Below, piece after piece: positions 7,029-61,494 of a DNA stretch of 64,000 nucleotides. A program made the translations under genes and the position numbers. The notes beneath the pieces were generated by a model. The model worked only from the letters and a program-made list of their open reading frames with translations. It searched no databases and was not told where the DNA came from. Numbering within the stretch: position 1 is the first letter of the stretch; each line of letters begins with the position of its first letter. Source of the DNA: Bryoerythrophyllum caledonicum (lineage: Eukaryota; Streptophyta; Bryopsida; Pottiales; Pottiaceae); the NCBI GenBank assembly GCA_963971425.1, contig OZ020518.1:7791989-7855988 (forward strand), given 5' to 3'.

Positions 7029-7149
7029 GTCTCCACCTCCTTGACTTTCAATCCCTCAAACCAACTCGCATTGCCTCAAAATAGGTTCCCGGCTTCAGTC
7101 CACATCAATCTCCCATCAGAGAGTCATCCCAAACCAGCCACTCACCTGG

Positions 7150-7262: not shown

Positions 7263-7463
7263 GTGTCTGGACAAACTTCTGTAGGAGTGTTTCTTTTGCA
7301 GTTCAAAGTCCGAGCTGATTGCTAAATAGTTTGTTTGTGAGTTACAAATACGAGGTGAGTTCCTTATCCCTTAAACGTCAGAACGGCCCACTGGTGCTCA
7401 CAATATTCTACATGTATGGTGTCATATTTGAACATCATAAGGTTTAGATATAGATGTTAGTTG

Positions 7464-8873: not shown

Positions 8874-8875
8874 TG

Positions 8876-11717: not shown

Positions 11718-12110
11718 GTCTCCACCTCCTTGACTTTCAATCCCTCAAACCAACTCGCATTGCCTCAAAATAGGTTCCCGGCTTCAGTCCACATAAATCT
11801 CCCATCAGCTCGTCATCCCAAACCAGCCACTCACCGGTGTCGGTAACGCAACATCAACATCTAACGCAGGGACAGTGACCGCCTCACAAGCCCTAATTGC
11901 GAAGAGAGCTGTCACCAGAATGAGCACATTGACCTTGAACGCCAGACCCCAGGGACCAGTCTAGAACTTCCAGACTGAGGGCTGACATATGAGAAAGTCT
12001 ACCCTGCTCTTGATCAAAGAATCTAGATTGGAGCTTGCTTCCGCTCTTGCAGCCACTGAAAACATTATCTTACAGCAAGTGCTCAATCTGCCTACTTGCT
12101 GAGGTAGCCT
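11718..12110 (+). pseudogene. 5' flank of kinase B with relic of block X
   Basis: After the 5' flank of kinase B, positions about 11925-12105 are similar to the plus-strand coding-like block X at 34842-35288, including AATCTAGATTGGAGCTTGCT. In B the X frame has stops (for example TGA in GACATATGAGAA near 11986). The block is a degraded duplicate of an unidentified gene that lay upstream of the ancestral kinase. Confidence 0.5.
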
Positions 12111-12295
12111 CAGTTCCGCCGTCGACGACGGCCCAAAAAGTTAACGCCGTGCCGGAAAAGCTTCGAATCAGATGCTCATGAGTACATTTGTCTCCAGAGC
12201 TCGAAGCAAGTGTCGAAAACTTTTTTACCTGGATATCTAACTACTACGTTTACCCGTGATCGCTTTCAACACCTCTTTTCGACAGAATTATTCTA

Positions 12296-12400
12296 CTGAT
12301 TCGGACACAATGGGTATCACCTAAGTATTTCATGGGTATCACCTATGCATTACATGGGTAGCACCTTGATATCACATGGGTAATCACCTAGACCAAAAAA
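12296..12400. repeat. Copy of a GGGTATCACC dispersed repeat
   Basis: Starts GATTCGGACACAATGGGTATC and has three ATGGGTATCACCTA-like units. A related copy is at 37215-37345 (GATTTGGACACAAGG, GGTATCACCTAGG). Family not recognised. Confidence 0.5.
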
Positions 12401-12471
12401 TGTTGTTTACCAAAATTTCGGACAGCTCTCCATTTTGAATTAATAATGTACGAAAGCGACCACGGCATAGG

Positions 12472-12761
12472 GTACATATAATTAAAGAGGAAGGGTCAAT
12501 ACCCGGCGATTACACATGCAATCTGTTGCGCCATGTGGCGACACCTAGCCTACTCCGGTATTGGCCTTCCTTGACACGTGGCAATAGCTAGGTAGAAGAA
12601 GAAGGGACATACCCGGCGATGGAAACCATGGATACCTAGGTGATACCCGCCATAGGAGACAATGACATCTGGCATTTACTATTTTTACTTTTATTTTTAC
12701 TATTTTAGTTCACTTCCCTAAACGTTCATTACCCGTTGGAGACAATGGATTGGTAAACTAG
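12472..12761 (+). mobile_element. Helitron-like terminus, first of three in tandem
   Basis: The 3' end has the Helitron layout: a hairpin ACCCGTTG-GAGA-CAATGGAT (12731-12750) followed seven bases later by CTAG at 12758-12761. The likely decayed 5' end is near 12472 (TACATATAATTAAAGAGG resembles plant Helitron starts). Only about 290 bases long, so non-autonomous. Calling it a Helitron rests on the end structure; no Rep/helicase sequence is present. Confidence 0.5.
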
Positions 12762-12944
12762 TCTCTTTATTTATAAAAGGTCTATGAGTATCATGTGATA
12801 CGTGGGTGATGTCCGCTACAGGAGGCAATGACATGTGCATCCATTTTTATTAATTTTACTTTTGTTTTTTACTTTGACAATTTTAGTCAACTAACCTAAG
12901 CTTTCATTATCCGTTGGGGACAATGGGTAAATATACTACCGTAG
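12762..12944 (+). mobile_element. Helitron-like terminus, second in tandem
   Basis: Begins TCTCTTTATTTATAAAAGG directly after the CTAG of the first unit, and repeats its final 130 bases or so. Its hairpin is ATCCGTTG-GGGA-CAATGGGT (12910-12929), followed by AAATATACTACCGTAG, a decayed CTAG end. Head-to-tail arrangement without spacer. Confidence 0.45.
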
Positions 12945-12989
12945 TCTCTACATCTCTTATAATAATTAGAGATGGGCGTGGGAGGCGTG

Positions 12990-13255
12990 GACAGGATATC
13001 CCCCAAGCTCGGACTTACCCAAGGTGGGCCCCCATCTTAATTGCATGGGCTCATTTTTCTTGACCTCCCATTTTGGAGGGTCAGAGGCTTTTTTTGGCTT
13101 TTTTTTTACAAAATTGGGGCCTACGGCTTCATTTTAATTAGAGGGAGCCCCTAGCCAAATTTAGGGCCCTCATTCAAAAACAAAATAGGAGCTAGGTTTT
13201 GGCCCCACCACCTCGTCCCCCACCCGGTAAGTCCGAGCGTGGGGGATGTCCTGTC
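12990..13255. mobile_element. MITE with 30-base terminal inverted repeats, copy 1
   Basis: Left end GACAGGATATCCCCCAAGCT and on through CGGACTTACC mirrors the right end GGTAAGTCCGAGCGTGGGGG to GTCCTGTC with two or three mismatches. The core is GC/purine variable with a T-run. A second copy is at 23535-23787, similar over the whole length. No convincing target duplication is visible, so the superfamily is open. Confidence 0.7.
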
Positions 13256-13849
13256 AAATCGGGCATGGGAGGTGGTTCCAACTCAGCCTTGACGGGTGAC
13301 GAGGAGAAGACACGTCAACGGAGAGAGGGAAGGAAGACCCTTAGTGGGCATGGAGGCAAACGCCACGAGTTATCCGGTGGCCGTGGGAGGAAGGAAGGGT
13401 TTGAAGCGGAAGCACGCTGCGGTCAGAGGGAATCAACCTGAGCAGGGTCGTACGTACAAGGAAAACTCTTGTTCACAGCATCGGCTTTCTAATGTCACAA
13501 AATTTGCAGTCTCTTAACCCCCAAACGCCGAAGCAGCCAGAAATTGGCTTCTCGGATGACATTGCTAGATGATAATCAGCGAAAACAATTGGTATCCGTC
13601 AAATAATAACTCCACTTATATTTGATGAGAAAATAGAGCATACAGTTGATTTGAAAATTTAGATTGACCACGGTCATAGGCTCCGCCCTTTCAGGGTTAA
13701 AAGATTCTAAACAAAACTTCCTCATCAAAACCTCTACGAAAACCTCAACAGCAAAAATTAAGCAAGAAAAATAAAAAAATACTCCATTGAACCAATGGCG
13801 ACCAAATGTTGAGGTTGATGAACAGCATAAACGCGTCAGCAACAATCTC

Positions 13850-13997
13850 TTATATTGGCAACAGGCCCATGATGTTCTGACCGTCGCGCGTCATGGCCAG
13901 CATGCGCGCCACCAAGTCCTCCAAGCTGCACCGGATCTTCACCACGCCTTCTCCATACTGTACTGCCCGCCACGAGGAATCCGAGCCTTCTCAGAGC
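13850..13997 (-). pseudogene. Unidentified exon-like fragment
   Basis: A GC-rich island in AT-rich DNA reads on the minus strand as an open frame of 48 codons, GSDSSWRAVQYGEGVVKIRC then SLEDLVARMLAMTRDGQ, and ends at a TAA. Composition and sequence look like real protein, but I do not recognise the family. It sits inside the Helitron candidate, which fits gene-fragment capture. Confidence 0.3.
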
Positions 13998-14529
13998 ATT
14001 CGCCTCAATGTTATCTTCCACTCGCCATTGCTAACACCTTTTCTCTCATATCCTAAAAACCACTCTCCCTCTTTTATTCTTTTAGTGGTGGGTAAGTTCA
14101 ATGGTTTGTAATTTTTCTGCTGAGTAGCATATGCTCTTTACGGTAGGGTTTCTCAAGAGATAGATGATTATAAGGGCGCTGGGGCCCTTTTATATTCATG
14201 ATCACAAATGGTTCGACTCCTATCCGAATTTCCCACAATGTCTCTAACATAAATAGTTTACGCTCTTGAGGATTTTGGATTCTCGAAAAAGATGATGCAC
14301 CTTTGATGAGCACACTTTTCAATGTCAAACCTGCTTCTCTCAAAATTCATGCAAGTCCGGCCTCTTGAGATGTTGGAATTTTGAGAAGCATGCTTTTTGA
14401 TAGGCGGCTGTTTTTTGGGGTTAGAATATAATGGTGTCTGTTGGTCTAATGTTCCACGTTGAGATTGCAATTGAAGAAGAAAGGAGACTAAAGCGCAAAA
14501 AATATCCGTCAAAAACTTCAGCCTCTTTC

Positions 14530-14820
14530 ATCTTACGGTCCAAATCTTGTTAGATTTTGATTATTTTATTAAAAAAGTCGACAGATTCTCGAAGGAAGTT
14601 TGGGTCGACTAAAAACGGCGACCGAAGTTTTGCTCAAGAGTTCGTTGTCTTGGCGCCAAAACTCTCCAAAAGTACTGCCATGTAGGCACAGTGGAAGACA
14701 ACGGCTTTTGGACCTTGGCCTTTGGTGTGAAGGCCAAGAGGCCGGACTTTGGCCAATCAAGCAATCTCATTGATGGAAACCGACGGACTCTCGGCTCGGG
14801 CATTAGGTGTGAAGCATCCC
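14530..14820. mobile_element. Relic of a PIF/Harbinger-like MITE
   Basis: Right half of the element found complete at 60360-60911. Shared segments include CTCTTTCATCTTACGGTC, GTTTGGGTCGAC, TTGGCGCCAAAAC and the end GTGTGAAGCATCCC, which corresponds to the GTGTGAAGCGGCCC terminus. The left inverted repeat is not recognisable. Confidence 0.65.
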
Positions 14821-15051
14821 TCATTGTGCAGATTAAAAAGCTAACAAGACCTTCAAATGATGATCCCTGATCTGCATACTAGCATTTGCACCTGCAATGC
14901 CGTCATGCAAACCTCTTTAGCAATTGTGCATCAAGCGCTTTTGTACTTGCATTGCAAGTCAAATTTAATCAAACCTTGTGTATTCTTCTATTTTGTTTAG
15001 TAAGTCAAGTTATGCCTCTTTCCCATTGGAGACGAGGGGTGAATATACTAG

Positions 15052-15448
15052 TGTTAAGATAAAAAGCTAACACCCCGTCTAGCTCCGCTCATCTTGTGTC
15101 ACTTCCACATCCTACATTAATGTCTTTAGACTAGTATACAACAATTGGAATTTCATTATAGAACCTTGTAAATCATGCATTCAAAAACACTACTCTAAAT
15201 TTGATGTTTCGTGTAGGCACACTATATGATTTATAAGTGCTATAAGTTTTTAATCTTGATGAATTTTTTTACCAACCATTTTGACAATGATCACCTTCTT
15301 GAAGTAGTATAGATAGCTGTACTCTCAGTAAAAATCATCATTGAAAGCAAAAAGTTATAGCGCTTTTAAATCATAAAGTAGCACAACACTTAACACCAAA
15401 TTCAGTGTAGTGTTTGAAAACACACAACATTACCTCTAGAGCTTATAA
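15052..15448. other. AT-rich intergenic DNA
   Basis: No open frame with coding character and no repeat that I can match elsewhere in the window. Confidence 0.4.
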
Positions 15449-15578
15449 CCCCTAAAGGACCAAGTGTCCCTTGGTGGGACAATTTTGATTTTGGGCAGGT
15501 TTCTAAAATTTTATTTTTGAATTTATTTTTGGAAGTTTTATACTAGATTGTTCCCAATAAGAGATTTGTAGAGGTTTA

Positions 15579-15634
<56 letters not shown>

Positions 15635-15757
15635 CATCATTATTATTTTTTGGATTCATGGTTTGAAAGTTAGTACCACTCAAAGTCAATAATGGGGACG
15701 GCGGGCAACCTTGGCACCTCTGTAAACCAATAAAATACAAGTGTCAAAGAGGGGTTG
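15449..15757. mobile_element. Possible TTAA-type element with TTA microsatellite
   Basis: Left end CCCCTAAAGGACCAAGTG is the terminus of the TTAA family (compare 30929 and 61566). The interior GTTTGAAAGTTAGTACC matches 31087-31103. A degraded right end, GTCAAAGAGGGGTTG, lies near 15742-15756. The flanking TTAA is altered to ATAA on the left. A run of about 20 TTA triplets lies at 15578-15640. Confidence 0.45.
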
Positions 15758-15764
15758 TAAACAG

Positions 15765-15822
15765 GGAAGAAGAAGAAGAAGAAGAAGAAGAAAAGAAGAA
15801 GAAGAAGAAGAAGAAGAAGAAC
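15765..15822. repeat. AAG microsatellite
   Basis: About 18 AAG triplets with one interruption (AGAAAAGAAG). Simple sequence, no coding role inferred. Confidence 0.9.
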
Positions 15823-15829
15823 GCCAGTC

Positions 15830-16485
15830 CCCGTAGGAGGCCGGCGTGAGCTGTAAACAGGGATACAAAAGGTGGAGGAAAGATGGGGCACTTCAAATCA
15901 TGAAAGAAAAAAGCGCAAGGGGAGACCCGACCAAGTCCACGAAGTATGGACTAATTATAAATAGATTAAAAAATGTTCTTGATTTGAAGTCCAATCTTAG
16001 AAGACTCTCATTTCTAGGAGGTGGTGGTGAATGAAGTGGCCCTCTATGTCATGAAGGGTCCTCGATTTCAAGCCTTGCCCTCCCCCATAATTCCTGAAAA
16101 TTAGAGATTTAATTATTTTGAGAAAATAAAATTTCTAAACTTAGTAGATATGGACATGGCACACACGAGCCTATATTAAGTTCTCATTTTATATTATGAA
16201 AATTGGCACTATAGTGTCATTATATATTGCCATTATCTAGTGTCATTATATACACTTTGTTGTGTCTCAACCAAAATGCCTATTAAATATGAACAAGGTT
16301 GTTGGTCTTCAGTTAGAAATAGTTTTAGCTACCTTTAAGAATGAAGGAGAAGAGGACATATTGTATCATGAATCATAGTTGTCTTTTACCTCTTTGACTT
16401 AATTACAGGTATTTAAAGTATCAAATTTATAATGTCACATATAGTGCCACTATAAAATGTCACCAGGAGATAGGTTTTCGCGAGC
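15830..16485. other. AT-rich intergenic DNA
   Basis: No gene seen. Several AGTGTCATTATATA/AGTGCCACTATA-like short motifs recur at 16210-16260 and 16440-16460, an unidentified local repeat. Confidence 0.4.
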
Positions 16486-16760
16486 TCGTGTCATTTTCAC
16501 AAATGTCGAATGATGGGGTTGCACATCGTTCTTTTGTCTTTCTCGCTTGCACATGAAAGTCGAATTCGTTGGTTTCTTTACTTACCATGAGAGTGTTTCT
16601 AAAGCTTGCACTTTGTCTTCACCTCAAAAAGAGTCGGTGAGCAGTATAAGAAAGTACCACTTCTTTCAGTTTGTACTTTCAGTCGGTGATTCTTATTCTG
16701 CTCTCAACAAGCGTACCGCTACACATCAAGGTCCAACCTCCTGAACCCGAAACCTAGAGA
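16486..16760 (+). pseudogene. TAF11 intron 4 and 3' tail relic
   Basis: 16490-16690 matches TAF11 intron 4 (4530-4680): CACAAATGTCGAATGATGGG, TCGTTGGTTTCTTTACTTAC and CATGAGAGTGTTTCT. 16683-16760 matches the sequence just past the TAF11 stop (CGGTGATTCTT, then CAACCTCCTGAACCCGAAACC). The exons themselves are lost. It marks the third copy of the TAF11-kinase duplication unit. Confidence 0.7.
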
Positions 16761-16797
16761 ATGTGATAGTTCACAAACCTCAACAAAATCTGGACTT

Positions 16798-16823
16798 ACC
16801 CTAAACCCTAAACCCTAAACCCC
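16798..16823. repeat. Short interstitial telomere-like repeat
   Basis: Three and a half copies of CCCTAAA followed by CCCCGAACGAAACGTGAACC. Equivalent but worn blocks lie at 4983-5000, 8973-8990 and 31937-31953, all in the same place of the duplication unit. This is an inherited part of the unit, not a chromosome end. Confidence 0.75.
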
Positions 16824-17166
16824 GAACGAAACGTGAACCGTAAATCTGGTCTCTTGGCCCAGCCACTTGGCTCAGTTGGGATACCCACCAAAACAATCTC
16901 TAGATGGAGGCTTTGTAGCAAAGTCTAATGAGGAAGTGGATCATGCTGGATCATACTTTTGAATAGCATAGCTTCTGAGGAATTCTTGAACCCAACGATG
17001 TGAAAAGCGGAGAGTTAGCTTCGCATAATCACTTTTGGAAATAAGAAGCGACTCTATTTTCATTCAATGAAATTTTCTTCAGTTGCCTTTGGTCGATTCT
17101 TCATATGTTCTTAGAACACACCTCCTGTTCTAGAGTGTGATATAAATTAGTCAAAGAAAGCATCCG

Positions 17167-19619
17167 TCATCTCATGTGATACATGAAATACCTATCACTA
17201 CTAGAAATAGAATTCGAAGATTGAAACACATGCACAGTCTCCGAATCAATGTTCTCACTTGACCTCTGACCCACTCTGCAATTCTCATCCACACCTCGGA
17301 TTGCCACCAGCTCCTCCACAACCTCTTTCATGCCTGGCCTGTGTTGCTGCCTCTCTGCCAGGCACTTGCACGCTAATTCACCCACTCTCTGCATCTGATG
17401 GGCAACAATGCCATACGCGCTCTCGTCAAACACCCGTGGGTCTGCAATTGCCTTCACGTCCCCAATTCGGATGAAGGGTAACGCCATGTTTGACAGATTC
17501 ACATCCTCTGCCTCGCGCTGGAAGTCCACCGGCTTCAGCGACGTCACGAGCTCCAATAGCACCATTCCGAAGCTGTACACATCGCTCTTGTCTGTGAGTT
17601 GGAAGGTTCTGAAGTACTCGGGGTCTAAGTATCCCGGAGTTCCCTTTACCGCAGTCGAAACGTGGGTGGCGTCGGGCTTCACAAGCTTAGAAATGCCGAA
17701 GTCGGCAACCTTGACGTTGAACGTGTCGTCCAAGAGTATGTTGGAGGTTTTCACATCCCGGTGAAAGATGGGCGGAAACGCAGCCGAGTGCAGGTACCTG
17801 CAAGGATTCATAACATGGTGCAAACGTTTCAAGCGTGGCCCAGAAAAAGAGATGCTGGTGTTCAAACATGAAAATGACAACTCAAGTGCACATAGAAACG
17901 AACGTCCAATGAATAGACTAACCTGAGAGCTTCGGCCGTGTCGATGGCAATCTGCAATCTTCTATCCCAACTCAAATGTTGGATCCCAGGTCGCTCACCT
18001 TGCAAATGTTGGAACAGGTCCCCGTTTGACACGTACTCATACACAAGCATGGGGACCTCAACCTCGAGACAGCACCCATGCAACCTCACCAAGTTGCGGT
18101 GGTTCAGTTGCGACAACAAAGAAACCTCATTTATAAACTGCTCTGACAGACCCTTCATGATCACAGTCTTATCATTGATCTTCTTGATGGCGACTTGCAC
18201 GCCGTTGTCAAGTGTGCCCTTGTACACTGTGCCAAAACCTCCGGATCCTAATTTGCAGTCATCTGAGAAGTTCTTGGTGGCTCTCTGAAGCTCTTTGAGG
18301 GTGTAAAAGGTTGTCGAGTAGGCCGTTTTGAGTGAGTGTGGTGAATTGAAGTGTTGCAGCTTCCCAATAGCTTCTATATTTTTTCGTGTAAAGTCCTCTC
18401 TTTCCCTTCTTTGGCGCATGTGTGGTAACCAACCACACCAAATCAGACCTAACAGGAAAATCATAATTGCGGCTATGAACCCGAACAAAAGACCTGCAGG
18501 TCAAAGGATATATGTCAAGATGAATGGTTAGTACCATAACGCTTATGATTTACTGGTTCCAATTAATCATTGGTGCCGAAGCTAAAAATTTATAGAAGGC
18601 ATATAGATGCTCATGACAATTTGTTGCCTCGTTTTGTGTGGAATGTCCATGACACATCAATTCCAGTTATTAAAAACAAAGACATTCAGTTTCAAATTTA
18701 TGTGTCGTTCCTGACATCGTAAAGAGATTGATAGGGAGCCAACGCTAACCAAGAATGATGTACAGCTTCCTTTTCTTGGCTTTTGCTTCATCTCTTTCCG
18801 CATCTGAATCCCCTGCAGTTGGTGCAGGCCCTGGAGATGGAGACGGCACTAGCTGAGAGGTAACATTTGTGAATGACATATCTGCACGCTTACGAAACAA
18901 GGGTCAAGTCAGTTCTAGTTGAAACAAACAGAAACAACCCCCTAACAGCTCTCGTGTGCTCCAGTAGACGTACTTCTGTCGCCTTCAAATTGAAGCACCA
19001 ACGAGTAGGTCGAGTTCGGAATATTCGGAGGGTCGGGAGGGGGCATCTCGAACAGCTTGCAGCTGCTGAACGCCGGATCCCTGAAGTTGTCCAGCGTCAT
19101 AGGACAAGCCCACCGAGGTTCAGTCCGATTGACCACGCCCGAGCCAGAGCGGTCGCAGGGGCTGCTGAAATTCTGGAGCGCAGTGCACTCTCCGATCATC
19201 CGATCGGGGCAATCCAGAAGCAGGGTGGTCGTGTTGGTGATGTTCATTCCTCCGAACCTGTTCGGGTCGAAGTCGCGGCAGGTCGCGTTCGATCCCTGCG
19301 GCACCAGCGAAAGCGTCTGGTTCCAGTAATCTATCTTGGTCACCTTGTACTGGTCCTGCGAGAACGTGTTATTCTCCGTGTTGTTGACGTACAGCGTCTC
19401 CCCGTGGCACTCAAACATAAACTCCGTGTACGTGGAGTAGCACTTGTTGCTGAGCGCATCCGCCCCCAGGCGAAATGGAAACCTGATCGACGCATCAATG
19501 TGCGAACCGCATGTCCTCCAGGGACAGTACCCGCTGGCGCTTGCCGCCTCAGATACGCTTGTGATCACCATGCTCAACATCACCAATGCACACGCCAACT
19601 TCACCCGCGGCATCGCCAT
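17167..19619 (-). CDS. Receptor-like kinase copy C (GUB_WAK ectodomain, LRK10L-like)
   Basis: Best-preserved kinase of the cluster, about 640-650 residues. Exons 19619-18974, about 18852-18750, 18493-17923 and 17797-17167. Exon 1 starts at MAMPRVKLACALVM (an ATG eight codons upstream is not shared by the other copies) and gives a signal peptide plus the Cys-rich ectodomain (YCPWRTCGS, IRFPFRL, DYWNQTLSLVPQG, many N-glycosylation sites). Exon 2 is a Pro-rich then Lys-rich stalk. Exon 3 has the span IAAIMIFLLGLIWCGWL, GSGGFGTVYKG, VAIKKI and FINEVSLLSQ. Exon 4 has HRDVKTSNI, DFGISK, GTPGYLDPEY and DVYSFGMVLLELV. All catalytic residues are present. The acceptor of exon 2 is ambiguous: the first AG (CTCAG) gives a stop, while CTAG, CCAG and TGCAG further in keep the frame. 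Family role (wall or pathogen sensing) is known only for homologues; the ligand is unknown. Confidence 0.85.
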
Positions 19620-20180
19620 TTCTCCACCTCCTTGACTTCTCATCCGTCAAACCAACTCGCCTTGCCTCAAAACATGTACCCGGCTTCTGTCCACATCAAT
19701 CTCCCATCATACACTCATCTCAGAGCAGCCACATACCGGTATCGGTAACGCAGGGACATCAACACATCAACATCTAACATCTCACGCAGGGACAGTAACC
19801 GCCTCACCAGGCCTAACTGCTAAGAGAGCTGTCACTGGGATGAGCACATAAACCTTGAACGCCAGACCCCAAGGACCTGTCTACTACTCCCAGATAGAGG
19901 TTTGACACATCTGAAAGTCTCTCCCCTTTTTGATCAAAGGATCTAGATTGGAGCTTGCTCACGCTCTTGCAGTCATTGAAATCAAATATCTCACAGCAAG
20001 TGCTCGATTTTCTCCCAGCTCGCTCTCCTTGCTGATGGTACAGTTTCTCGGTCGATGCCTGCCGAAAAAGTAAACAGACGCGGAGCAAGTGGTTTGACTC
20101 TCAGAAGCATGCTCCCAATTTCGCTCCCTGTGGTCACAGTTGATGATGCTTTGCTGTCCCTTTCACAGCTTTTAACTTTG
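19620..20180 (+). pseudogene. 5' flank of kinase C with relic of block X
   Basis: The promoter side of kinase C. Positions about 19850-20050 match block X at 34842-35040 (TCTAGATTGGAGCTTGCT, CTCACAGCAAGTGCTCGAT). The plus-strand X frame reads SKDLDWSLLTLLQSLKSN with a TAG and a TGA on either side, so it is broken. 20155-20280 contains a short direct duplication of CTTTCACAGCTTTTNACTT with TTGTCCATTCAGGA. Confidence 0.5.
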
Positions 20181-32170: not shown

Positions 32171-34591
32171 CTACTTTAAAGAGCTGTCACTACCCGTAGT
32201 GACATTCGAAGAATCGAACACATGAACCGTGTCCAGTCCCTCATGCACCCTCGCATCACTAAACTCACTTGACCTCCGACGCACTCTGCAAATCCCATCC
32301 ACACCTCGGATTGCCACCAGCTCCTCCACAACCTCCTTCATGCCTGGCCTGTGGTGCCGCCTCTCTGCCAGGCACTTGCACGCCACTTCACCCACTCTCT
32401 GCATCTGATGGGCAACAATGCCATACGCGCTCTCGTCAAACAGCCGTGGGTCAGCTATGGCCTTCACGTCCCTTCTTCTGATGAAGGGTAACGCCATGGT
32501 GGCCAGATTCACGTCCTCCTCCCTCCGCTGGAAGTCCACCGGCTTCAGCGACGTCACGAGCTCCAACAGCACCATTCCGAAGCTGTACACATCGCTCTTG
32601 TCTGTGAGTTGGAAGGTTCTGAAGTACTCGGGGTCTAAGTATCCCGGAGTTCCCTTTACCGCAGTCGAAACGTGGGTGGCGTCGGGCTTCACAAGCTTTG
32701 AAATGCCGAAGTCGGCAACCTTGACGTCGAACTTGTCGTCCAAGAGTATGTTGGAGGTCTTCATGTCCCGGTGATAGATGGGCGGAAACGCAGCCGAGTG
32801 CAGGTACCTGCAAGCAATGTAATCGACGTCTAAAGGTTTCGCATGTGTTTCAGAAAAAGAGATGCTGGTTTGGAGTGTGTTCCAATGAACAGACTAACCT
32901 GAGAGCTTCGGCCGTGTCGATGGCAATCTGCAATCTCTTACCCCAACTCAAATGTTGGATCCCAGGTCGTTCACCTTGCAAGTGTTGGAACAGGTCCCCA
33001 TTCGACACGTACTCATACACAAGCATGGGGACCTCAACCTCGAGGCAGCACCCATGCAGCCTCACCAAGTTTCGATGATTCACTTGCGACAACAGAAATA
33101 CCTCATTTATAAACTGCTCTGACAGACCCTTCATGTTCACAGTCTTATCATTGATCTTCTTGATGGCGACTTGCACGCCGTTGTCAAGTGTGCCCTTGTA
33201 CACTGTGCCAAAACCTCCGGATCCTAATTTGCAGTCATCTGAGAAGTTCTTGGTGGCTCTCTGAAGCGCTTTGAGGGTGTAAAAGGTTGTCGGGTAGGCT
33301 GTTTGGTGGGAGTGTGGTGCATTGAAGTGTTGCAGCTTCCCAATAGCCTCTATGTTCTTACTCGTGAAGTCCCCTGTTTGCCTTCCTGGGCGTATGTTTG
33401 GAAGCCAGCCACAACAATTGAAACATAACAGGAAACATATTATTGCGGCTAGACACCCGCACGCAACACCTGCAGGTCAAAGTATGAATGTTAAAATGGG
33501 TAGTACGATAACGCTTATGATTTCGATATTCTATTTCAGCCCATGTGCCCAAGCTAATAGAATTGTGAAATGCATATAGACTCTCATGACAAGTTCTTCG
33601 CTCATTTCGGGTGGGATGTCCATGACACATCAGATACTTTCTCAAAAAACAAAGACATCCATTTCCAAAGTTGAGAGGCGTTCCTGACATCATAAAGAGA
33701 TTGATAGGGAGACAACGCTAACCAAGAATGGTGTATAGCTTCCTTTTCTTGGCTCTGGAATCATCTATTTTTGCTTCTGAATCCCCTGCAGTTGGTGCAG
33801 GCCCTGGAGTTGGATACGACACTAGCTGAGAGGTAAAATTTGTGAATGACCGATCTGCACGCATTTGTAACAAAGCCCAAGTCAGTTCTAGTTGAAACAA
33901 ACAGAAACAACCCCTATAAACTCTTGCGTGCTCTCGTAGACGTACTTCTGTCGCCTTCAAATTGAAGCACCAACGAATAGGTCGTGTTCGGAATATTTGG
34001 AAGGCCGGGAGGGGGCACCTCGAACAGCCTGCAGGTGTTGAACGCCGGATCCCTGAAGTTGTCCAGCGTCATAGGACAAGCCCACCGAGGTATAGTCGAA
34101 TTGAACACGCTCGAGCCAGAGCGGTCACAGGGGCTGCTAAAATTCGAAAACTGGGTGCACCCTCCGATCACCCGATCGGGGCAATCCAGAAGCAGGGTGG
34201 TCGTGTTGGTGATGTTCATTCCTCTGAACCTGTTCGGGTCGAAGTCGCGGCAGGTCGCGTTCGGTCCCTGCGGCACCAGCGAAAGCGTCTGGTTCCAGTA
34301 ATCTATCTTGGTCACGTTGTACTCGTCCAGGGAAAACGTGATATTCTCCGTAATGTTGAGGTACAGCGTCTCCCCCTGGCACTCGAACACGAACGTCGGA
34401 TAGTCGGAGTAGCACCCGTTGCTGAGCGCCTCCGGCCCCAGGCGAAATGGAAACCTGATCGACGCATCATTGTTCGATTCGCATGTCCTCCAGGGACAGT
34501 ACCCGCTGGCGCTTGCCGCCTCAGATACGCTTATGATCATCATGCTCAACATCACCAATGCACACGCCGACTTCACCCGCGGCATCGTCAT
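32171..34591 (-). CDS. Receptor-like kinase copy D (GUB_WAK ectodomain, LRK10L-like)
   Basis: Exons 34591-33946, about 33825-33723, 33469-32899 and 32807-32171, all with canonical borders and about 640-650 residues. Exon 1: signal peptide (MTMPRVKSACALVMLSMM) and ectodomain (YCPWRTCES, IRFPFRL). The usual CG after CPWR-T is CE here. Exon 2 is the TPGPAPTAGDS stalk, with the same acceptor ambiguity as copy C. Exon 3: span (LAAIICFLLCFNCCGWL), richer in Cys than in the other copies, then GSGGFGTVYKG and VAIKKI. Exon 4: HRDMKTSNI, DFGISK, GTPGYLDPEY. No stop or frameshift found. Its exon 4 is closer to copy B around the HRD motif (YHRDMK, DDKFDVKVAD) and to copy C around the LVTSLKPVD stretch, which suggests gene conversion. 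Ligand and role unknown. Confidence 0.85.
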
Positions 34592-34841
34592 AGTTTCTCC
34601 ACCTCCCTGACTTCTGATCCCTCAAGCCAACTCTCCTCGCCTAAAAACTTGTCGCTGGCTTCAATCCACATCAATCTCCCATCAGAGACTCATCTCAAAC
34701 CAGCCATTCACCGGTGTCGGTAACGCAACATCAACGTCTGATGCACGGACAGTAGCCGCCTCACATGCCCCATAACTTGCTTAGCGAGGTGTCAGTGTAA
34801 TAATGAACACGACCTTGACCCCTAGATTCCCAGGAACTGTC

Positions 34842-36350: not shown

Positions 36351-36353
36351 AAT
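36285..36353 (-). other. tRNA-like/B-box segment next to the 5S-like sequence
   Basis: On the minus strand, directly after the 5S-like sequence, GGTGGTTGTGAGTTCAAGTC and CTATTGCCGGCGTGG follow. GAGTTCAAGTCC is a good Pol III B box (T-arm) motif. A full cloverleaf cannot be drawn, so this is not called a tRNA gene. A composite SINE head is the best guess. Confidence 0.35.
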
Positions 36354-36470
36354 GGATGCAGCTTCGGGACTTTCCAGGAGGTCATCCATCAAGTACTATT
36401 CCGGCACAAAGGCGCTTAACTTCAGAGTTATGATGGGATCTGGTGTAGTAGCCTTGGTATGACCGCATTA
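36354..36470 (-). rRNA. 5S rRNA-like sequence (pseudogene or SINE head)
   Basis: Read on the minus strand it follows plant 5S rRNA almost end to end: AATGCGGTCATACC, GATCCCATCATAACTC, AGTTAAGCGCC (box A region), AGTACTTGATGGATGACCTCC (box C region), GGAAAGTCC and a GCATCC end. Length 117, close to the normal 118-120. Changes at otherwise fixed sites (AGGATGGG to TGATGGA, GAACTC to TAACTC) argue against a functional ribosomal copy. It stands alone rather than in a 5S tandem array. Confidence 0.7.
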
Positions 36471-50904: not shown

Positions 50905-51640
50905 ACATCAAGGAGTGCCTCTACACAGCGAACTTCACCACCACCAAAACAGAGAGAAGAAGGTGCCAAAACAGGATGATTATCAAGGCGCGCCCTTGCG
51001 CAGAAGACTACACCACCTGCACCAAGGTACGCCCTCGCACGGCGAACGCCACCTTCACCAAAATCGCAAGCAGCAGGGGCGAAAATTTGACAATCACCAA
51101 GGCGCGCCATCACGACACAAACACCCCGAGTTCTGTAGACTAGAGCAACAAGCCTCAACACAAGAGAGACAACAAGGCGAGCTCTCGCAGAACGAGCGCC
51201 ACCTCTATCAAAGACAGGTACAGAAGAGGAATAACCAAGACAAACCCCGCTACTCGCCTTCGTGCAACGGTCGACTCCAACACTGCAGGTCCGAGCAACA
51301 AGCCCTAGAACAAGACAGGCTCCAAGGCGCGCCCTCGCGCGAAGAGCGCCACCTCTACAGCAGCCGGGCGGAGCCAATACCGAATCAAGACAAGCTCCAG
51401 GAGCTGCCATCGAGCCACGAATGCCTCTAGCATTGTAAGGTCGACCAGACCCCAATTGGGACAGTCATCAAAGCGCACCCCTGCGTAAAGCACGCCGCCT
51501 GCACCAAAGACATGAACAGGTCATCCCGAAGCGAGCTCAGCCCCAAGACGTGCCCCTGCCCAACGGACACCCCCTGCTTAGCAAGCCAGAACAACAGGCA
51601 CCGTACCAAGGCGAACAGCACCGAGTTCAAGCCAAGCGAC
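50905..51640 (+). repeat. Tandem array of about ten 75-base units
   Basis: Degenerate units with a core AAGGCGCGCCCTCGCGC, then GAGCGCCACCTCTACC. Unit cores start near 50985, 51099, 51174, 51324, 51471 and 51545, with weaker ones between, that is at multiples of about 73-76. 75 bases is 25 codons. In one frame the array gives QGAPSREERHLYSSR-type repeats, in others different repeats, so the coding frame is not settled. It is GC-rich inside AC-rich DNA and sits just ahead of ORF1. Confidence 0.6.
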
Positions 51641-53467
51641 AACTGGCCAAACGCGAGGTACTCGTTAGCAGCTGCCCCCAACCAACAATACCCGTATTCA
51701 CTAAGGTAAGTACTCTCCCTCTCTGCATTTGTTCATTGAACTCGAACACTAAAAAAAAAATTAACAACCTCTCTAAAGTAGACTCTCTCCCCCCTTACAT
51801 TGACCCATTAAAACCCAGCACTAAAAATAATACTAAGAATTCTAGCTCTGAAAACATGTCCAGAAGTAAAAGGAACCTTTGCTATGAGGAAATGATGGAT
51901 ATAGATGAAGGAACCTCACACAGAATATTGGCTTCTAAAGAAAAAATTGGTAGAAAAAACATGGAGGAGATTGGCAGCAGCAAAAAGAGCAAAGGCACCA
52001 GCGACGAAGAAGGTACGTCCCCTCTTCTTGACCCCATAACCACGACGTTCAAATTTTGGCTAGGGTATGAAGCCATGGAATGCCTCGCAATCGAAGAGGG
52101 ACTTGAGGAACTCCCACGTGATGAGAAAGTGGAGGATATGATGACAAGAGGATTTCAAGAACACGAAGCGAAGGAGTTCAAAACCGCAAGGATGCATTTT
52201 CAAGGATCCCACAACTCTACTACCCACTTTCAAGACCGGGGAGTGATGAACAACACTACAATATCACTCAACTTCCCAAAGGCACGAAGATCACCAGTGC
52301 CACAAGTTTGGCCCTTGACTTCCATGTTGCTATTTACTTTGAGCCATCCTCCTCTCTCTTATTGCATGATGATGTCCACAAGATGATAACACATAGACTA
52401 GTGGTCATGGAAATCAAATAAGGGTCAAAAGTTATGGATCCCATTCACATTCAATGCCATAGTGTCAAGAGAGGGGGACAAAAAGGTGTTTGGACCGGTA
52501 TGTTTAAGCTACACTTACTCAACCCCGAAATGGATGCCCTTATGTTGCTAAAAGGAATAAGGCATTTTATTCTCACCTTTGACAATCAAAACATCATTGG
52601 AAAGGTGTGTAAATCTTTTCCCCTAACCACTAACTCTTCTAACCTCTCCGTGCAAGTGAGAAGTGACACATTCATAGGTACATCTTCCCATCAACTATTC
52701 AAGGACATCCTCTACAATAGCTTCAAACATGGCCAAGATTATGAGATCACGGGAGTGACTAAGGGAGAAGGAGACTCACTAGCCTTTATTGCTGTGACCA
52801 CCCCCCTCCAAGCCTCCAAGATACAACACATCACCACCCACCATGAGATCATAAAGCAAGGAAGACCTACATTGGAGGGCGAGTGACACCCGAAGTCAAG
52901 GCCAAGAAGGATGCCATCTCTCTCACCCTCTCCCCCTTACCCCTTCTCATGAGTGTGCATGATACTACTAGTAATGCTATTCATAAGATTATGGGAGAGA
53001 ATAACATTAACTCCATTTGGTTCCACAAGGAAATCGAGGGTAGACACAATGGTAAGGTTAATGTTGAATGCACTAACCCCATTGTGTATAAGCAATTTAG
53101 CATAGGTGACAACTTCGTGGACTTTACTCCGCATTGGAAGAGCTTAGAAAGTAAACAACCTCCTACCGAAGAACAAATCAAGGCCTTTGGATTCAACAAC
53201 ATCAACACCGCAATGGTTAACACCATTGCAACCTTCAAGATTCAAGACGCCCCCATCAACATTACCAAGAAGGAATTAAAGGAAGCTTCGGAGGAAAACA
53301 ACAAAAAGATGCTAGAAGAAAGTAAAAAATACACCGATGCACTACATAGCGAGTTGGTGGATCAAATGGACAAGGTGGAGAATGCCATGAATGCCACATT
53401 TCTTGCACTCCAAACCATGAAGGGAAGAATGCCACAAAGACTTGAAGACAAGCGGCCAAACATGTGA
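51550..53467 (+). pseudogene. LINE ORF1-like region in three frames
   Basis: Consecutive open pieces 51550-52386, 52434-52886 and 52883-53467 overlap or abut in different frames, as expected of one ORF with small indels. Piece 1 has a charged start (MSRSKRNLCYEEMMDIDEG, then KSKGTSDEE). Piece 2 includes VWTGMFKLHLLNPEMDALML and a KHGQDYEITGV stretch. Piece 3 ends in a Lys/Glu-rich helix (TKKELKEASEENNKKMLEES, then MDKVENAMN) that could be a coiled coil, as in many ORF1 proteins. No zinc knuckle or RRM was recognised. Pieces 2 and 3 overlap at GTGA (52883-52886). The role of RNA binding is only inferred from position. Confidence 0.5.
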
Positions 53468-54071
53468 AGACCAATGACCACACGATAATCCATACTTACC
53501 ATCCATATAGTTATATACAATACATATGGTACTTTACAATATACATATCCTCTCATTATACTAACACTATACACATCATTGTAGATACGTACTTAGATAG
53601 TACATACAAACATTGTACTACCCTCCATTTTAATACCAATACAATTACTATACACGGTACGTATACACACATGACCATCCAATGTACCATCCACCAAATA
53701 AAATACCTTGTATACTACACAAAATACTCTATCAAATACCACACCAAGTACAACTACCAAATACCAAAGAGAAAAACACATACATATACACATACTAGTA
53801 AACATATAACAAAAAACTCACATAACAATATAATGTGCAATACACATAACAATACACCAACAAATACACAAATATACACACACACAAACACACCACCTTG
53901 CACAAATACAAAAAATTACACATACATAAAAACCATACAAAATAACACACAAAGAAACACACAAAAAAACTCACAAACCATGAAAACAAATTGGTACAAA
54001 ATAGCACCAAATATCACAAAACCACACACACCATACATATGAAAAAATAGAACTAAAAACATACAAACTAA
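53468..54071 (+). other. A/C-rich spacer between ORF1 and ORF2
   Basis: Almost free of G on the plus strand, with runs of ACACA, TACAT and ACAAA. An open stretch of 192 codons (53464-54042) exists, but its composition (Thr, His, Asn, Tyr, Ile) simply follows the base bias, and I do not accept it as a gene. Confidence 0.5.
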
Positions 54072-57000
54072 TACACACAAACCCACCCTAAACACAAAAC
54101 AACTAGCAACCATACTTCTAGTACAACAAAAGAAAAAACAATAACACACCCAAACAGAAACTCATACTCACTACAGAACAAGCACAAAAAAAAACTTCAT
54201 AAAGTTACACAAAAGACAAGAATTCTAAAACACAACACCAAACCAAAACACATAAAACTCCTATTACTTTTAGGAGGAGACATTGAAATTAACCCGGGCC
54301 CAATGCCTAATATACTAAAAAGACACCCTACATCACATAAGAAAAATGCCAAAATATACTTCATACCTAATATCATAAAATTCCAACCGGGATATAGACA
54401 CATTGCAAAATCCTTCGCACCTTTCTTAAAAAACACACATACACTACAACACACACATAATGCTACACACCCAAACATTGCCCAATACATACAACAAAAA
54501 AATACGCATCCACCACCCTACATTCTATATGCCCTAGTAGTCACTATTCACCCACACATAGATGAATGGAACCATCTCCTAAATCCACAAAATTTGAATA
54601 CAATTACATGGACCAATACACTTCTACAAACTTTACTAAACTTACAAAACCCACCAGAACGACACATTCACACTAAGCACCCTTATATAAAGTTTCTTGA
54701 AGACAACCAAAATATTATAAACCATGAGAACTCAATACATAAGGAACTATACGACTTTTTACATAGTCAAACCATACCTCCCTCAAATGAAACAATAAAA
54801 CTAAAATTCCCTTACCTCCCTAACAATCTCATCAATGAATCACTAAAATGTTTAGACCCTATACCAGAATACACCCACCCACCTCCACCACTTCCCTACA
54901 TCCCTCCACAAAATCAAAACATTAGATCAAATCAAGAAAATACATACATAATCACATGGAATGCCTCCTCTCTAAACATTGCCCTTTCTAGCTTACAAAC
55001 TTTGGTCACGCACACAGACACACCACCAGCCCTCATAGTTATACAAGAAACAAAATTATCCGCCACAAAATCTACAAATTATATACAAAATATATTTCAA
55101 GACTATAAACTCATCTTTAACAATACACATGCACTTACAAGATGCATCCAACAACGAAGACCTTACACACCGGGCCGCGGGGACCTCCTTACACTAATAC
55201 ACAAAAATATGCCTTCCCGGGCAACATCAACAAAATTCCTACCCCAATGCACATATCACCATACATTCAAATAATCAAAATTACTAATCACCCACTACAA
55301 CCATGGTTAATCTTTCACATGTATATGCCATCTCATCCCGAAGATACTAGATTTATCATAGACATATAAAACACTATTACATCTCAAATTAATAATAACC
55401 TCAATCACACATACCTATTATGTGGAGACTTCAACAGAGACATAGCATTAATGGGTCGCCAAAATGGAAATCATAACACCCCCCTTCAAACCATTGATTA
55501 CCAATGGCGCAGCTTCACAGAAAACTTAAACTTCGTCTACATCAATACCGATACACAATTCTCTAGACAAGGTGGCTATAATTATAGTGATTGGAGTCTA
55601 ATAGATGGATTCTATATAAATACAAACAACAATACACAATACACCTCTACAACAAACAAGGATGATATTCTCAACTCAGACCACTTACCTATACGAATGC
55701 ACATCCCAAATAACACATTAATTAATAGAACTCCCACAACTCTAAACAATGACACTATACGCATACTCAACTCCATCTCAAAAGACAATATAAAAAAATT
55801 CAACACAAAATTCTTTGAAGAAAACTCCATACGAATAGACTCCCTCATAAACACTATTGAAAATAATAGTCAACTATCACAAATACAATGGCAAGAAGCA
55901 TGCCACACCCTAGACAAACTCATCAATAAAATCTCTGACACACTAGAACAAACTTGTAGAGCCCACCCAATACCTCAAATGACAAACAGAACTTCTCAAC
56001 AAGGTAGTTATTTATCCCCCAAACTTTTAAAAACTTGGAAACAACACCTAACTACATACCATGTTATACGAAAAACCATTAGAATTGTAAAAAACAACCC
56101 TCAATGGCGTAACCACCCCATATGCAATGAACTACTAACTGTAGAACACACCCAAATCCCTACCCCACCGCCTCCGGATCTACCCCACGATACATGGATA
56201 AAAGATATCGCACTAATTGCAAAAAATGCCAACATACAAGCCCGAAAAGTAACCTCAAAATACGCCAAAGATAACATTAAGAAAGCCATCTCAAAATACA
56301 GACAATTATTTGAAATTAGCCCAAAAAAATAAACAAAAAAGTCTTTAAAAACCTTGAAATCCCGCCGATGGATTGTATCACAGATCAATATAATAATATT
56401 CTGACTAGCCCCGAAGACATTGCGAATGAAATATTCAACCAACAAACATGGTCATTCCTCCCATTCGGTTTATACTTAGTGAGAGGCCCAAGGGCTTTAA
56501 AAATGACATTTTTATGAAGTGTGACCATGGAAGTGTGACCATGAAGTATGACCATGGAATTAATCCATTTTCCTTGGTCACAGCTCTTGGTCTGTAGTGT
56601 AAACCGCCCCTAATTACCAACCACAACATCCAATTGAATGTACATGTGCAGTACGCCAATATCCATGGCATGACCTTGATGGATTTACCCTCGACAAACG
56701 AGGCGAACCATAAATTCCACTTCGTAAATACTTCAACAAAGCCACATACGACACATGCCTTCAAAATCTTGGTAACAACAAAGCCCCAGGCCCAGATCGC
56801 ATACCAAATTCAACACTCAAAAACATGCCTCCAAGATTTCATAAATTATTATTCCTATTCTTCTCTCACTGCTATAAACAAAAATAAATACCGACCTCAT
56901 GGAAATCAAGTGCAACAATTTTACTATACAAAAATGGTGACCCGTCCATACTACCCAACTATAGGCCAATTGCACTAGCTAATACAATATATAAACTCTT

Positions 57001-57936
57001 CACTAGTACACTCACCTCTATACTATCCTCATACCGTGAAAATTTTAAAATCCTACATGATAGTCAAGAGGGATTTAGAGCAGAGAGAAGTACCGCTCGA
57101 CAAATACAAACTATAATAGCCGCACTAGAAGACGCAGGATTTACAAACCAAGATATATACATATTATATGTTGACTTTAAAAATGCCTTTGGCACAATAG
57201 ACCATGCTAGCAATAACTAGCAATAATGATGGCTCTTGGTTACCCAAAAGATGCAACCACACTTGTTGGAAACATCTACTCCCAATCATCCACTTACTAT
57301 ATAAGTGAACACTTTGGGAAAACAAAACCTATACCCATTCAAAGAGGAACTATACAAGGGGACACCCTTAGCCCATACCTATTAATTATATTCTTAGAAC
57401 CACTATTCAGATGGCTAGAACGAGGCAACAATGGATACACTTTTGGCACATCACAAGCCACAATAAACTCTGCCGCAGACGCGGATGACCTCGCCACCAT
57501 AACTAACAAAATTAAATCTATCCAAATACAACTCAATAAAATTAATAGATATTGCAAATGGACTGGTATGGACGTAGGTGTCCCAAAGTGTGCCGCTACC
57601 GGATGCCCAAACAAATCCAAATTGAACCCTAGCACTTTCAATGCCCTAATGCAAGCTTCTAACATCAATTACCGCAATCAACCAATCCCTATACTACATC
57701 AAAATGAACCATACATATACCTAGGTACAAATCTTGTTCCCTCACGAAAATGGAAAATCCAAATTCATACTACAACCACGAAACTCATCAAACAATGCAA
57801 AGAACTAACAACATGTCCGGCCACCATGAAACAAAAAATTAAAATGGTTGATACCGTACTACGCCCATGTGTGGCATACAGTTTCTACGGCGTACCATAC
57901 TCTATGCCAGCTATCAAAAAACTTGATAAAAAATAA
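54072..57936 (+). pseudogene. LINE ORF2: 2A, endonuclease and reverse transcriptase
   Basis: The frame is open from the TAA at 54069-54071 to 55274 and is the 2A frame; no ATG precedes 2A in it. Endonuclease: ITWNASSL (about 54951), IVIQETKLS (about 55035), CGDFNRD (55420), SLIDGFY (55597) and SDHLPI (about 55676), the last with the catalytic His. Reverse transcriptase: NKAPGPDRIPN (about 56776), NGDPSILPNYRPIALAN (about 56934), SQEGFRAERSTARQIQT (about 57063), ILYVDFKNAFGTIDHA (about 57160), RGTIQGDTLSPYLL (57343) and ADADDLATI (57475), where the usual Tyr/Phe of the Y/FADD box is Asp. Downstream: YLGTNL (57719) and GVPYSMPAI (57889). Several shifts and stops make it non-functional as it stands. 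Confidence 0.8.
54255..54302 (+). other. 2A ribosome-skipping peptide motif
   Basis: Codons read KLLLLLGGDIEINPGP, followed by Met. This matches the 2A signature D-[VI]-E-x-N-P-G-P with the usual hydrophobic, Leu-rich stretch before it. At such sites the ribosome fails to form the Gly-Pro bond and releases the upstream chain. Similar 2A peptides are known at the N-terminus of ORF2 in several APE-type LINEs, ahead of the endonuclease, which is exactly the position here. Confidence 0.85.
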
Positions 57937-58250
57937 TAGCCATACAAAAAACTATATGTGGATTACCAAAATGTATGTCAAATGTAATAACCCAACTCCC
58001 ACATAACCTATTTGGGCAAGAAGCTTTCTCCCTCAAAAATGCATATCTCTGATGTATATGTGAACAACTACAAAATGCTTTAAACGATATAGGTAGACTT
58101 GGAAAAATATATAATGGATTAACTCATTATGTCCTTGCCCAATACGGTGGTGCCAAAAACATACCCAGAATTTAAAAAAAGTGACTGCATAAGATCACCA
58201 ACAACACATTCTTCTTATTAAAACACATAGCTAAAGTCCACCTTAAAAGT

Positions 58251-59315
58251 ATGCTTCCAAACTTCCTCATTAATCCTACATCACTAGAAACACTATGGCG
58301 CCAAGAAACACTAAATCACAACACACTCAATGCCCAACTATCCCAAAAGCTTCTACAAAAACTCCTCTCAAAGAATATTTTTGAACTAAACCAAATTACT
58401 TTACCTAACAGCACATACATCATGAACAATGAGGACTTCAAAGCCTACCACTTCACCCCATCCAAATTATTAAAAAATGCTCTAAATGTTGCTAAACAAC
58501 TATTTTGCCACCCAACATGCCCCACCATATGTCATGCCCCTTGTAACATACACTCATACTCCTATATACTTCAAGATTCATTCATCACCATCAACAATAG
58601 CATCACCCCAAGAAATATTCCCCCATCAATCAATCCCCCTAATCCCACACATCCATACCACCCCGGTCCCCCAACATACATCTCCAAAAACCCTACCACA
58701 TATCCCATTAATACCATCTCACACCACAAACATATACAACACACAGATGCAAATAATATACAAAATACCTACACAAAATACTTATGCCAATGGCAACACA
58801 ACGAAAATACATACAATAAATGGCTTCCCCAAAGAAACCTTTTCCTACGTCACGACACCAATATCTCCACACATAACATCAAAAAATTAAAACAATACTA
58901 CCAAAAAATTCAAAACATAACTTACTCAGATATCATCCAAAACCACCACCCCCAAGAACAATTCTCAGGCTCAAGATCCGTAACACCACCCATAATTATT
59001 CCACTCTTTAATATCTATACAATAGAATGCAATCCCAAAAATGATATCCTTACACTATCAAACACAATAAAAATAAATAACAATCAAACACATCTATATG
59101 AAGAAAATGGCCGACACTTACACACTATCCCCATTACTCGACTCCAATGGCTATGGAATCAATACAATACAAAACTACAAACCCCTACAAACATCGAACC
59201 AACGACCCAACCCTTTAAAACCAAATTAATTTGGCTATACCAAAGATATAAATACGGAATACCGAAAAATGACCCCCTCAAAAATGCGCAATACACAATA
59301 CCCACACCCATTTAA
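58251..59315 (+). pseudogene. C-terminal part of LINE ORF2
   Basis: 354 open codons after the reverse transcriptase, same base bias as the rest. Features: HPTCPTICHAPCNIHS (a Cys/His cluster, about 58507-58556), a Pro/Thr-rich linker, then QWQHNENTYNKWLPQRNLF and TRLQWLWNQYNTKL. The Cys/His cluster could be the zinc finger that many LINEs carry after RT, but spacing is not a classic CCHC. Function not known. Confidence 0.5.
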
Positions 59316-60359
59316 GACTCACAAATTTCATCCTTTAACATAGAACAATCATACTTTTCTTCCCCGGTCACATGTTCTACCAAACAAAAAAAATTCTACT
59401 CACCTTATGAAAGAGACAAATATTCGGATCCTTGGGAAAGGCCTTTGACTGCAAATGGATCGGTTTGCGGGGGTGACCTTCTCCCTCTCCTTCTTACTTA
59501 GTTTTTTAATTTTAATTTTACTCTCCCCTCTTTCTCCCTCTCTATCTCTTCTTTTTAGTATTGATCAAAAAAATTAGATTGCCCCTAATTTCAATAATAA
59601 TCTACTCTAAAAATAAATCCCTTACTCTCCCTCTCCCTTGCTCTCTCTCTCCCTCACTTCATTTATTTATTTATTTATTATATTACTCTTCCCTCCTTTT
59701 CCCTCTCTCATTTTTTAATAAAATTCTGATTTTGTTTCTTTGGATTGCCCATGATTTCAATAATGATCTACTATTTATAAATATAAAAAAACTCTTTTTC
59801 TTGGATTCCATGTAGAATTCCTTCTTTGCTTTTATGATTTGTCCCTTGCTCCTTACCTGCCACCCTCCTCCTTTTATCATAATTGTGAAAAAAAAAATCA
59901 TCGTACTTCTTCCCCCCTTCCAAACCTTTTTTTAAAAATTGAGATTGTCCCTCACCTACTCTCCCTCTCCTACTAATTAAATAGAGAGCATCCTTTTAAT
60001 TTCGTTGACATTGTCCATTACTCCCTCTTCCTCTTCTTCTATACTAATTGAGATTGTCCCTCACCACCTCTTTGTCTCTATTGTAAATTTGGTTCTAGTT
60101 TGTTACATAGTGTCTACCCTCGAGAGGGGGGAGTAGTTCCATACTACTAACCCTTTGTCTGGTGGACATTGGTTCTGTGGTGGAACAAACAGACACTTTA
60201 TTCGCTCCGGTCACCCCTAACGTGGACCGGAGTTCTTCTTTTTTGGTTCTAGTTTTTTTTTGGTCCCACTATTCCTCATTTCTCCCTCTTTGTCTCTTTT
60301 TAATTTTTAATTTTTTGATTGTCCCTCTCTCCTTCCTTCTCCCTCTACATCTATTCTAA

Positions 60360-60911: not shown

Positions 60912-61377
60912 TAATTGATAATTTATTTTTTTGATTGTCCTTCTCTCCCTTTTATCCCTTCTATTTTGATTTGTATAAAAATAAATCCTCTTGGATTCCT
61001 CCTAAAATTCCTTGATTAGTTTAATGATTTGTCTTCCCCCTTCGTTAATTGGTCTGACCTTTGTTAAAGTTAGATTTTTCTTCTAAAAATGGGAATGAAA
61101 ATAAAATTAGAATGCACATCTATCCTACATGGCATAGGACACATAGTTTAAAAAATTGGTTTCCCTTTTGTTCATTCGGTTTGAACTAAAAAAAAAAAAA
61201 ACTTTTTTCTTAGGATACCTCCTAGGATTCCTTTTCCAAATTTATAATTAGTCTTGTTGATCCAACTCAGAATCGAGCTGAATCTGAATTGTGGGACTTG
61301 GATTTTTTGAACATGTATTTTTTTGGGACTTGGATGAACGTAGATTTGGAAAAATGATTTCCTTAAAAGATCAAAAT

Positions 61378-61494
61378 GGATACAGCTCCGGGACTTCCCG
61401 GGAGGTCACCCATCCTAGTACTATTCCGGCCCAAAAGCGCTTGTTTTAGAGTTCTGATGGGATCTAGTGTAGTAGCCTTGGTATGACTGCATCA
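61378..61494 (-). rRNA. 5S rRNA-like sequence inside repeat R1
   Basis: Minus strand: GATGCAGTCATACC, GATCCCATCAGAACTC, AAGCGCTTTTGGGC, AGTACTAGGATGGGTGACC, CTCCCGGGAAGTCC, then GTATCC; 117 bases. The central and 3' control regions are those of plant 5S. The AGTTAAGCG box A core is changed to AAACAAGCG. TTTT follows four bases after the end, a possible Pol III stop. Since it is part of a dispersed repeat it is more likely a mobile or captured 5S copy than a ribosomal gene. Confidence 0.75.

Follow-up and report, generated by a model that had tools for sequence, protein, structure and literature searches.

The moss locus and its dead LINE copy

The window, i.e., the whole stretch of 64,000 nucleotides that was analysed, contains a dead LINE copy with a 2A (StopGo) signature ahead of its endonuclease and reverse transcriptase regions. 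The SLD5 gene found at 1656–2294 (minus strand) has Ceratodon purpureus as its nearest relative among named records (79% identity); the identity is 65% with Sphagnum, 62% with a lycophyte, 60% with a fern, 58–59% with liverworts, at most 54% with flowering plants, and 77–90% with records lacking a species name. Thus, the host is a moss, and the assignment of the LINE to a land plant in the preliminary description, which was made from the sequence alone, was right. A cluster of similar wall-associated-kinase-like receptor genes is located on the minus strand at about 5363–19748 and 32171–34621, where the PF13947 ectodomain and the kinase exon were confirmed in one piece each. Two isolated 5S rRNA matches are located on the same strand at 36353–36470 and 61377–61494 (75 and 83 bits). 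The features of the LINE copy are as follows (L numbers denote LINE copies):

51594–59464, plus strand: remnant of a dead LINE copy (blastn with L026, L027, and L101; the limits are alignment ends and not proven element ends)
51928–53467, plus strand: ORF1 remnant in three frames (tblastn with the L027 ORF1, ORF list)
53446–54042, plus strand: leader part 1, shifted to -1 with respect to the end of ORF1 and overlapping its stop (ORF list, junction comparison)
54072–54254, plus strand: leader part 2, in the 2A/ORF2 frame, without ATG (ORF list)
54255–54302, plus strand: 2A/StopGo unit of 16 codons, KLLLLLGG followed by DIEINPGP (octamer at 54279–54302)
54303–54305, plus strand: Met of the APE–RT LINE protein, immediately after NPGP
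54951–55501, plus strand: APE endonuclease region with a frameshift near 55202 (L101 residues 217–400 mapped by blastn)
56449–56610, plus strand: 162-bp stretch inside ORF2, unmatched in L026, L027, and L101 (blastn)
56939–57726, plus strand: reverse transcriptase region with a frameshift near 57210 (L101 residues 836–1097 mapped; PF00078)
59181–59464, plus strand: PCIF1-like region, start approximate, cut off at 59464 (L101 residues 1583–1721 mapped)

The ORF1 remnant is composed of three pieces (51928–52200, 52194–52910, and 52814–53464) and ends with the stop codon 53465–53467; no Pfam family matched it. The leader-frame ORF 53446–54042 is followed by a frame change ahead of 54072. The stop-to-stop ORF 54072–55274 (plus strand) contains the 2A unit, KLLLLLGGDIEINPGP. 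A complete 2A signature had been claimed here, and its 15 residues do lie within the 16 codons of 54255–54302; the statement that no in-frame ATG precedes it is also true of this ORF. Downstream of the unit, the ORF2 frame changes near 55202 and at 56323–56341, 57208–57217, and 57915–57930, and ORF2 stops short at 59464, within the PCIF1-like region. The window copy is dead, and it belongs to a large and partly young family. It has no open frame coding on both sides of the 2A; such a frame is present in L101 and in the six copies with open leaders considered below.

In the L101 copy, 2340 residues are intact after the 2A. They include an APE endonuclease (residues 217–400, PF03372, just above the cut-off), a reverse transcriptase (836–1097, PF00078), a PCIF1_WW-like stretch (1583–1721), and RNase H (1853–1994, PF00075). 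The element is an APE-type LINE, since its APE endonuclease is followed by RT within one protein. The endonuclease domain of L101 begins at residue 217 after the Met, in agreement with the distance of about 215 codons estimated for the window copy in the preliminary description. Five solved relatives were found for the L101 RT, all of the R2 type. At the C-terminus of ORF2 (L101 and the database proteins P0005 and P0008), CCHC, RHN, PD, E, and K follow each other in the order of R2-type nucleases. Comparison of the C-terminus with the R2-named P0014 by hhalign gave an E-value of 2.7e-4, yet a probability of 42, and a profile search of the C-terminus against the PDB gave no RLE match. By its motif pattern, ORF2 perhaps holds a second nuclease, a candidate RLE. 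The RNase H, the PCIF1-like stretch, and the possible RLE distinguish the element from an ordinary plant L1. The PCIF1_WW match (PF12237) between RT and RNase H was found in L101 (E 9.8e-12), L027, P0005, and P0010; NPPF, which we take to be the catalytic motif of PCIF1, is absent by eye from the PCIF1-like stretch of the LINE.

Conservation of the 2A unit

A codon-degenerate DIEINPGP pattern has 50 exact matches in the 437-Mb genome of the moss itself, whereas the reversed pattern has none. The matches, all of which were inspected, correspond to 49 loci and the window; L012–L014 are alike over the compared stretch. The next codon is ATG in 50/50 matches, and Met-Pro-Asn follows in 47/50. Because this set had been picked by the octamer, a search with the 215 residues after the 2A was also performed. 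The best 150 of 4032 candidates, i.e., the best-kept copies, were scored, and 39 of these 150 rows were inspected, mostly by rank and none by motif; one of them, L093, falls in the 377.8-bit score class of the young lineage with the 3087-aa frame. The D[IV]ExNPGP octamer is intact in 33 of the 39 copies (34 if G is allowed at the first place), NPGP in 36, and the next Met in all 39. The six altered octamers, as expected for dead copies, are NPSP in L059, NPRP in L065, DIKT in L064 and L067, GIET in L070, and a frameshifted one in L089. A sampled copy of the young lineage reads DIETNPGP.

Differences from the majority base in the 39 copies are distributed unevenly over codon positions. For the octamer, they number 6/4/88 at positions 1/2/3; for codons -8 to -1, 42/9/47, with many first-position changes keeping Leu; and for codons -14 to -9, 40/51/60. 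These position-wise differences indicate that a unit of 16 codons is kept. The onset of constraint is the Lys eight codons upstream of the octamer, and a constrained stretch beginning at codon -8 has the size of a 2A core. In ten copies of one subfamily, pN/pS falls from 0.79 over codons -25 to -9 to 0.43 over codons -8 to -1, and amounts to 0.33 after the octamer; the value of 0.00 for the octamer itself is so by construction, these ten copies having been chosen by it. Selection acts on the 2A octamer at the peptide level. The preliminary description had named random substitutions at the NPGP residues as evidence against a 2A, and no such drift is seen. The coincidental appearance of the motif within a decayed element, as the dead state of the window copy might suggest, has a negligible probability: it is ruled out by the 50 genome matches against none and the third-position pattern in the 39 copies, and the site recurs in database relatives.

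The query with ORF2 including the 2A returned 28 database proteins, four of which (P0002, P0003, P0004, and P0022) contain NPGP in a 2A-like context. DIEPNPGP-Met is located at residues 495 and 621 in P0003 and P0004, respectively, and DIQPNPGP at residue 136 in P0002. The remote LINE-like metagenome protein P0022 carries KLLLLCGDIHPNPGP near its N-terminus (residues 12–31, with the 2A-like NPGP at 28); H at p14, as in this protein, is listed among active variants in the available part of PMC12846837. In P0023, NPGP is in another context, and the remaining 23 proteins lack it. The absence of a 2A-like site from many of these 24 relatives can be explained either by a predicted start past the site (e.g., P0001) or by their remoteness.

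The hexapeptide before D is mostly LLLLGG, with LIILCG and LLILSG in subfamilies. An alternative reading is that the conserved 16 residues form a hydrophobic peptide of different function, related to membranes or signalling of the signal-sequence type, and that the leader and ORF2 stay fused; KLLLLLGG is indeed hydrophobic, and a 2A of sea urchin proteins additionally serves as a signal sequence, according to the accessible text of PMC4981915. However, what stays invariant corresponds precisely to the StopGo core D-I-E-x-N-P-G-P with G at p11, and a signal would be expected at the N-terminus, whereas the site here follows up to 739 open codons. We consider such a role quite improbable.

The leader and the possible entry of ribosomes

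The end of ORF1 was recognised by peptide search in 26 of the 50 octamer-bearing copies, and its stop always occupies one position within a junction common to these copies. There, the leader opens in the -1 frame in all 26, and in 22 of them a stop of the leader frame itself is located two to four codons ahead of that of ORF1. From there, the leader is unbroken to the 2A over 282 codons in L043, 229 in each of L018 and L030, and 192 in L047. Open leaders are also present in L033 (393 codons read) and the young copy L058 (739 codons), in which ORF1 was not detected. These six leaders of 192–739 codons, selected as the best copies and hence no random sample, have no in-frame stops, compared to means of 13.1–35.9 expected from 300 dinucleotide shuffles each; none of the 300 shuffles was stop-free for any of them. 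The frame upstream of the 2A is thus open in better copies, contrary to what the preliminary description had set down as a possible refutation. Its suggestion that a translated upstream part was lost in the window copy stands with regard to the frame break, as the frame is continuous in better copies; the lack of ATG is in part a defect of the window copy, but in-frame ATGs are few even in the better ones. The idea that the leader once continued from ORF1 does not hold, given the -1 offset between ORF1 and the leader in the 26 copies with a recognised ORF1 end and the young lineage, in which ORF1 was not detected. Likewise, a single continuous ORF1–2A–ORF2 frame was ruled out, as the frame of ORF1 relative to the 2A varies among copies.

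Comparison of the leaders of L018 and L030 showed 127 substitutions, no gaps, no stops, and a dN/dS of 0.47; random placement of these substitutions left the frame stop-free in 22 of 2000 trials. Differences by codon position are nearly flat in the leader: among five sets, the largest gives 479/593/566 and the second largest 86/138/136, compared to 140/76/197 and 29/24/83 in ORF1, with the reservation that two of the five set references carry a frame break. The open frames and the flat counts indicate that an uninterrupted frame is preserved in the leader, whose sequence is of little importance. No Pfam family matched the 739-residue leader of L058.

Long runs of Asn/Gln codons (AAC/CAA repeats) are located directly before the 2A in the L011, L016, and L042 leaders. 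The scan of 91 leaders, 39 of them just 216 nt long, showed a second, broken 2A tail further upstream and in frame in eight (L035, L057, L058, L099, L068, L074, L076, and L088). These tails are of four kinds, with the break located either within the octamer or ahead of it (L058 and L099, for instance, have GGDINTRPN), and give the impression that leaders were fused one behind another.

An in-frame ATG is present in the open stretch within 1.2 kb before the 2A in 18 of the 50 copies. The open frame of L058 extends over 2217 nt before the 2A, its first 476 codons being free of in-frame AUG, and the first in-frame ATG, at -789, lies behind ATGs in other frames; the leader contains 10 ATGs in all frames versus 28 expected. 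ORF1-bearing leaders are not ATG-depleted (12, 6, 5, and 7 observed versus 9.6, 5.5, 5.6, and 5.2 expected). Visual inspection of the ORF1 stop revealed no canonical slippery heptamer of the -1 type. An Rfam scan of four loci found no element such as an HDV-like ribozyme, with two sub-threshold MIR6149 matches (E 0.19).

An open frame of exactly 3087 aa, that of the young lineage, was found in 33 of the best 150 of 4032 rows; by hand count, 11 of these 150 rows outside the 3087-aa score class exceed 2349 aa. Among the four copies in which DNA identity within the young lineage was compared (L058, L098, L099, and L100), zero to one mismatch was noted as far as a point some 2600 nt ahead of the 2A, which was taken as the 5' end. 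ORF1 was not detected in this lineage, the match in L099 falling in its flank. The lineage represents a very recent LINE burst without detectable ORF1.

Alternatively, ORF2 might normally start at the Met after NPGP, with the leader mostly untranslated and the 2A rarely used or a relic. This would agree with the preservation of that ATG in every copy inspected, with the small number of upstream in-frame ATGs, and with the weak constraint on the leader amino acids. Nevertheless, an untranslated stretch would keep neither an octamer peptide with free third positions nor an open leader, and we regard this explanation as improbable.

A proposed role of the 2A in ORF2 expression

Very probably, judging by the sequences, the moss LINE family uses its StopGo site to release the leader from the large ORF2 protein. 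This reading builds on the motif, its codon-level conservation, the leaders held open, and the intact downstream frame of 2340 aa. Ribosomes would translate the low-complexity, AUG-poor leader in the ORF2 frame; between G and P at the end of KLLLLLGGDIExNPGP, the leader would be released although no stop codon is present, and translation by that ribosome would go on with Pro-Met-Pro-Asn. The skipping itself we infer from sequence, as we do entry into the leader, which may take place after ORF1 termination in ORF1-bearing copies or at a non-AUG start in the young lineage. With release at this point, ORF2 would always begin at the same residue. The small number of in-frame ATGs, the slight constraint on the leader amino acids, and the missing slippery heptamer speak against this reading, of which the mode of entry is the least secure part.

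Possibly, the 2A serves as a trimming device indifferent to the mode of entry, although we put this forward tentatively and hold it to be somewhat doubtful. The leader would be entered without a fixed AUG: in copies with ORF1, this would occur through reinitiation or a change of frame at its stop, and in the young lineage, through initiation at a non-AUG codon. Any resulting leader would be cut off, leaving a constant ORF2 start. If so, this would be a natural land-plant StopGo system that frees a retroelement from its own start codon.

StopGo is mainly known from viruses and is used as a tool in plants. Work attributed to Heras in 2006 and Odon in 2013 is said to have described 2A sequences in APE-type non-LTR retrotransposons, namely trypanosome L1Tc and animal elements. 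The position of the 2A ahead of the EN–RT protein is common to those elements and the present one, whereas the moss host, the long AUG-poor leader, RNase H, the PCIF1-like stretch, and the possible RLE after RT are distinctive. A literature search of partial coverage, with a plant entry in Odon 2013 being possible, gave no report of a plant LINE with a 2A. A moss LINE that was amplified recently and has a conserved 2A would provide a natural land-plant case, widening the kinds of LINEs with a 2A, and would make it testable how ORF2 is expressed without a clear start codon.

As far as the available sections of PMC12846837 go, the StopGo core is D(V/I)ExNPGP, with G, C, or N also admitted at the first place; p15 favours several residues, including T; an LLLLSG-like upstream class exists in viruses; and almost no StopGo motifs are found in plant viruses. 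With G at p11, the upstream context of the moss site fits the class described there. Both have an L-rich hexapeptide with xG at its end, then D, I, and E at p12, p13, and p14, respectively, and NPGP; in contrast, the moss site lies in a genomic retroelement and has T or I at p15, where the viral class prefers S. The portions of PMC4981915 at hand indicate that 2A functions in plant cells. The sea urchin 2A described there is, like that of the moss, non-viral and preceded by hydrophobic residues, but it is N-terminal and acts as a signal, whereas the moss 2A is located behind a long leader. With Dualen/RandI LINEs, as presented in the accessible parts of PMC3636483, PMC4640811, and PMC3747384, the moss element shares APE, RT, and RNase H. 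Further points of resemblance are its CCHC-RHN-PD-E-K order as in R2-type nucleases and an RT nearest to R2 among solved structures; the R2-like RLE, which Dualen/RandI LINEs combine with APE, is putative in the moss element, being recognised by pattern alone. The RandI families tabulated in the available part of PMC3747384 are from green algae, whereas the present element is from a moss.
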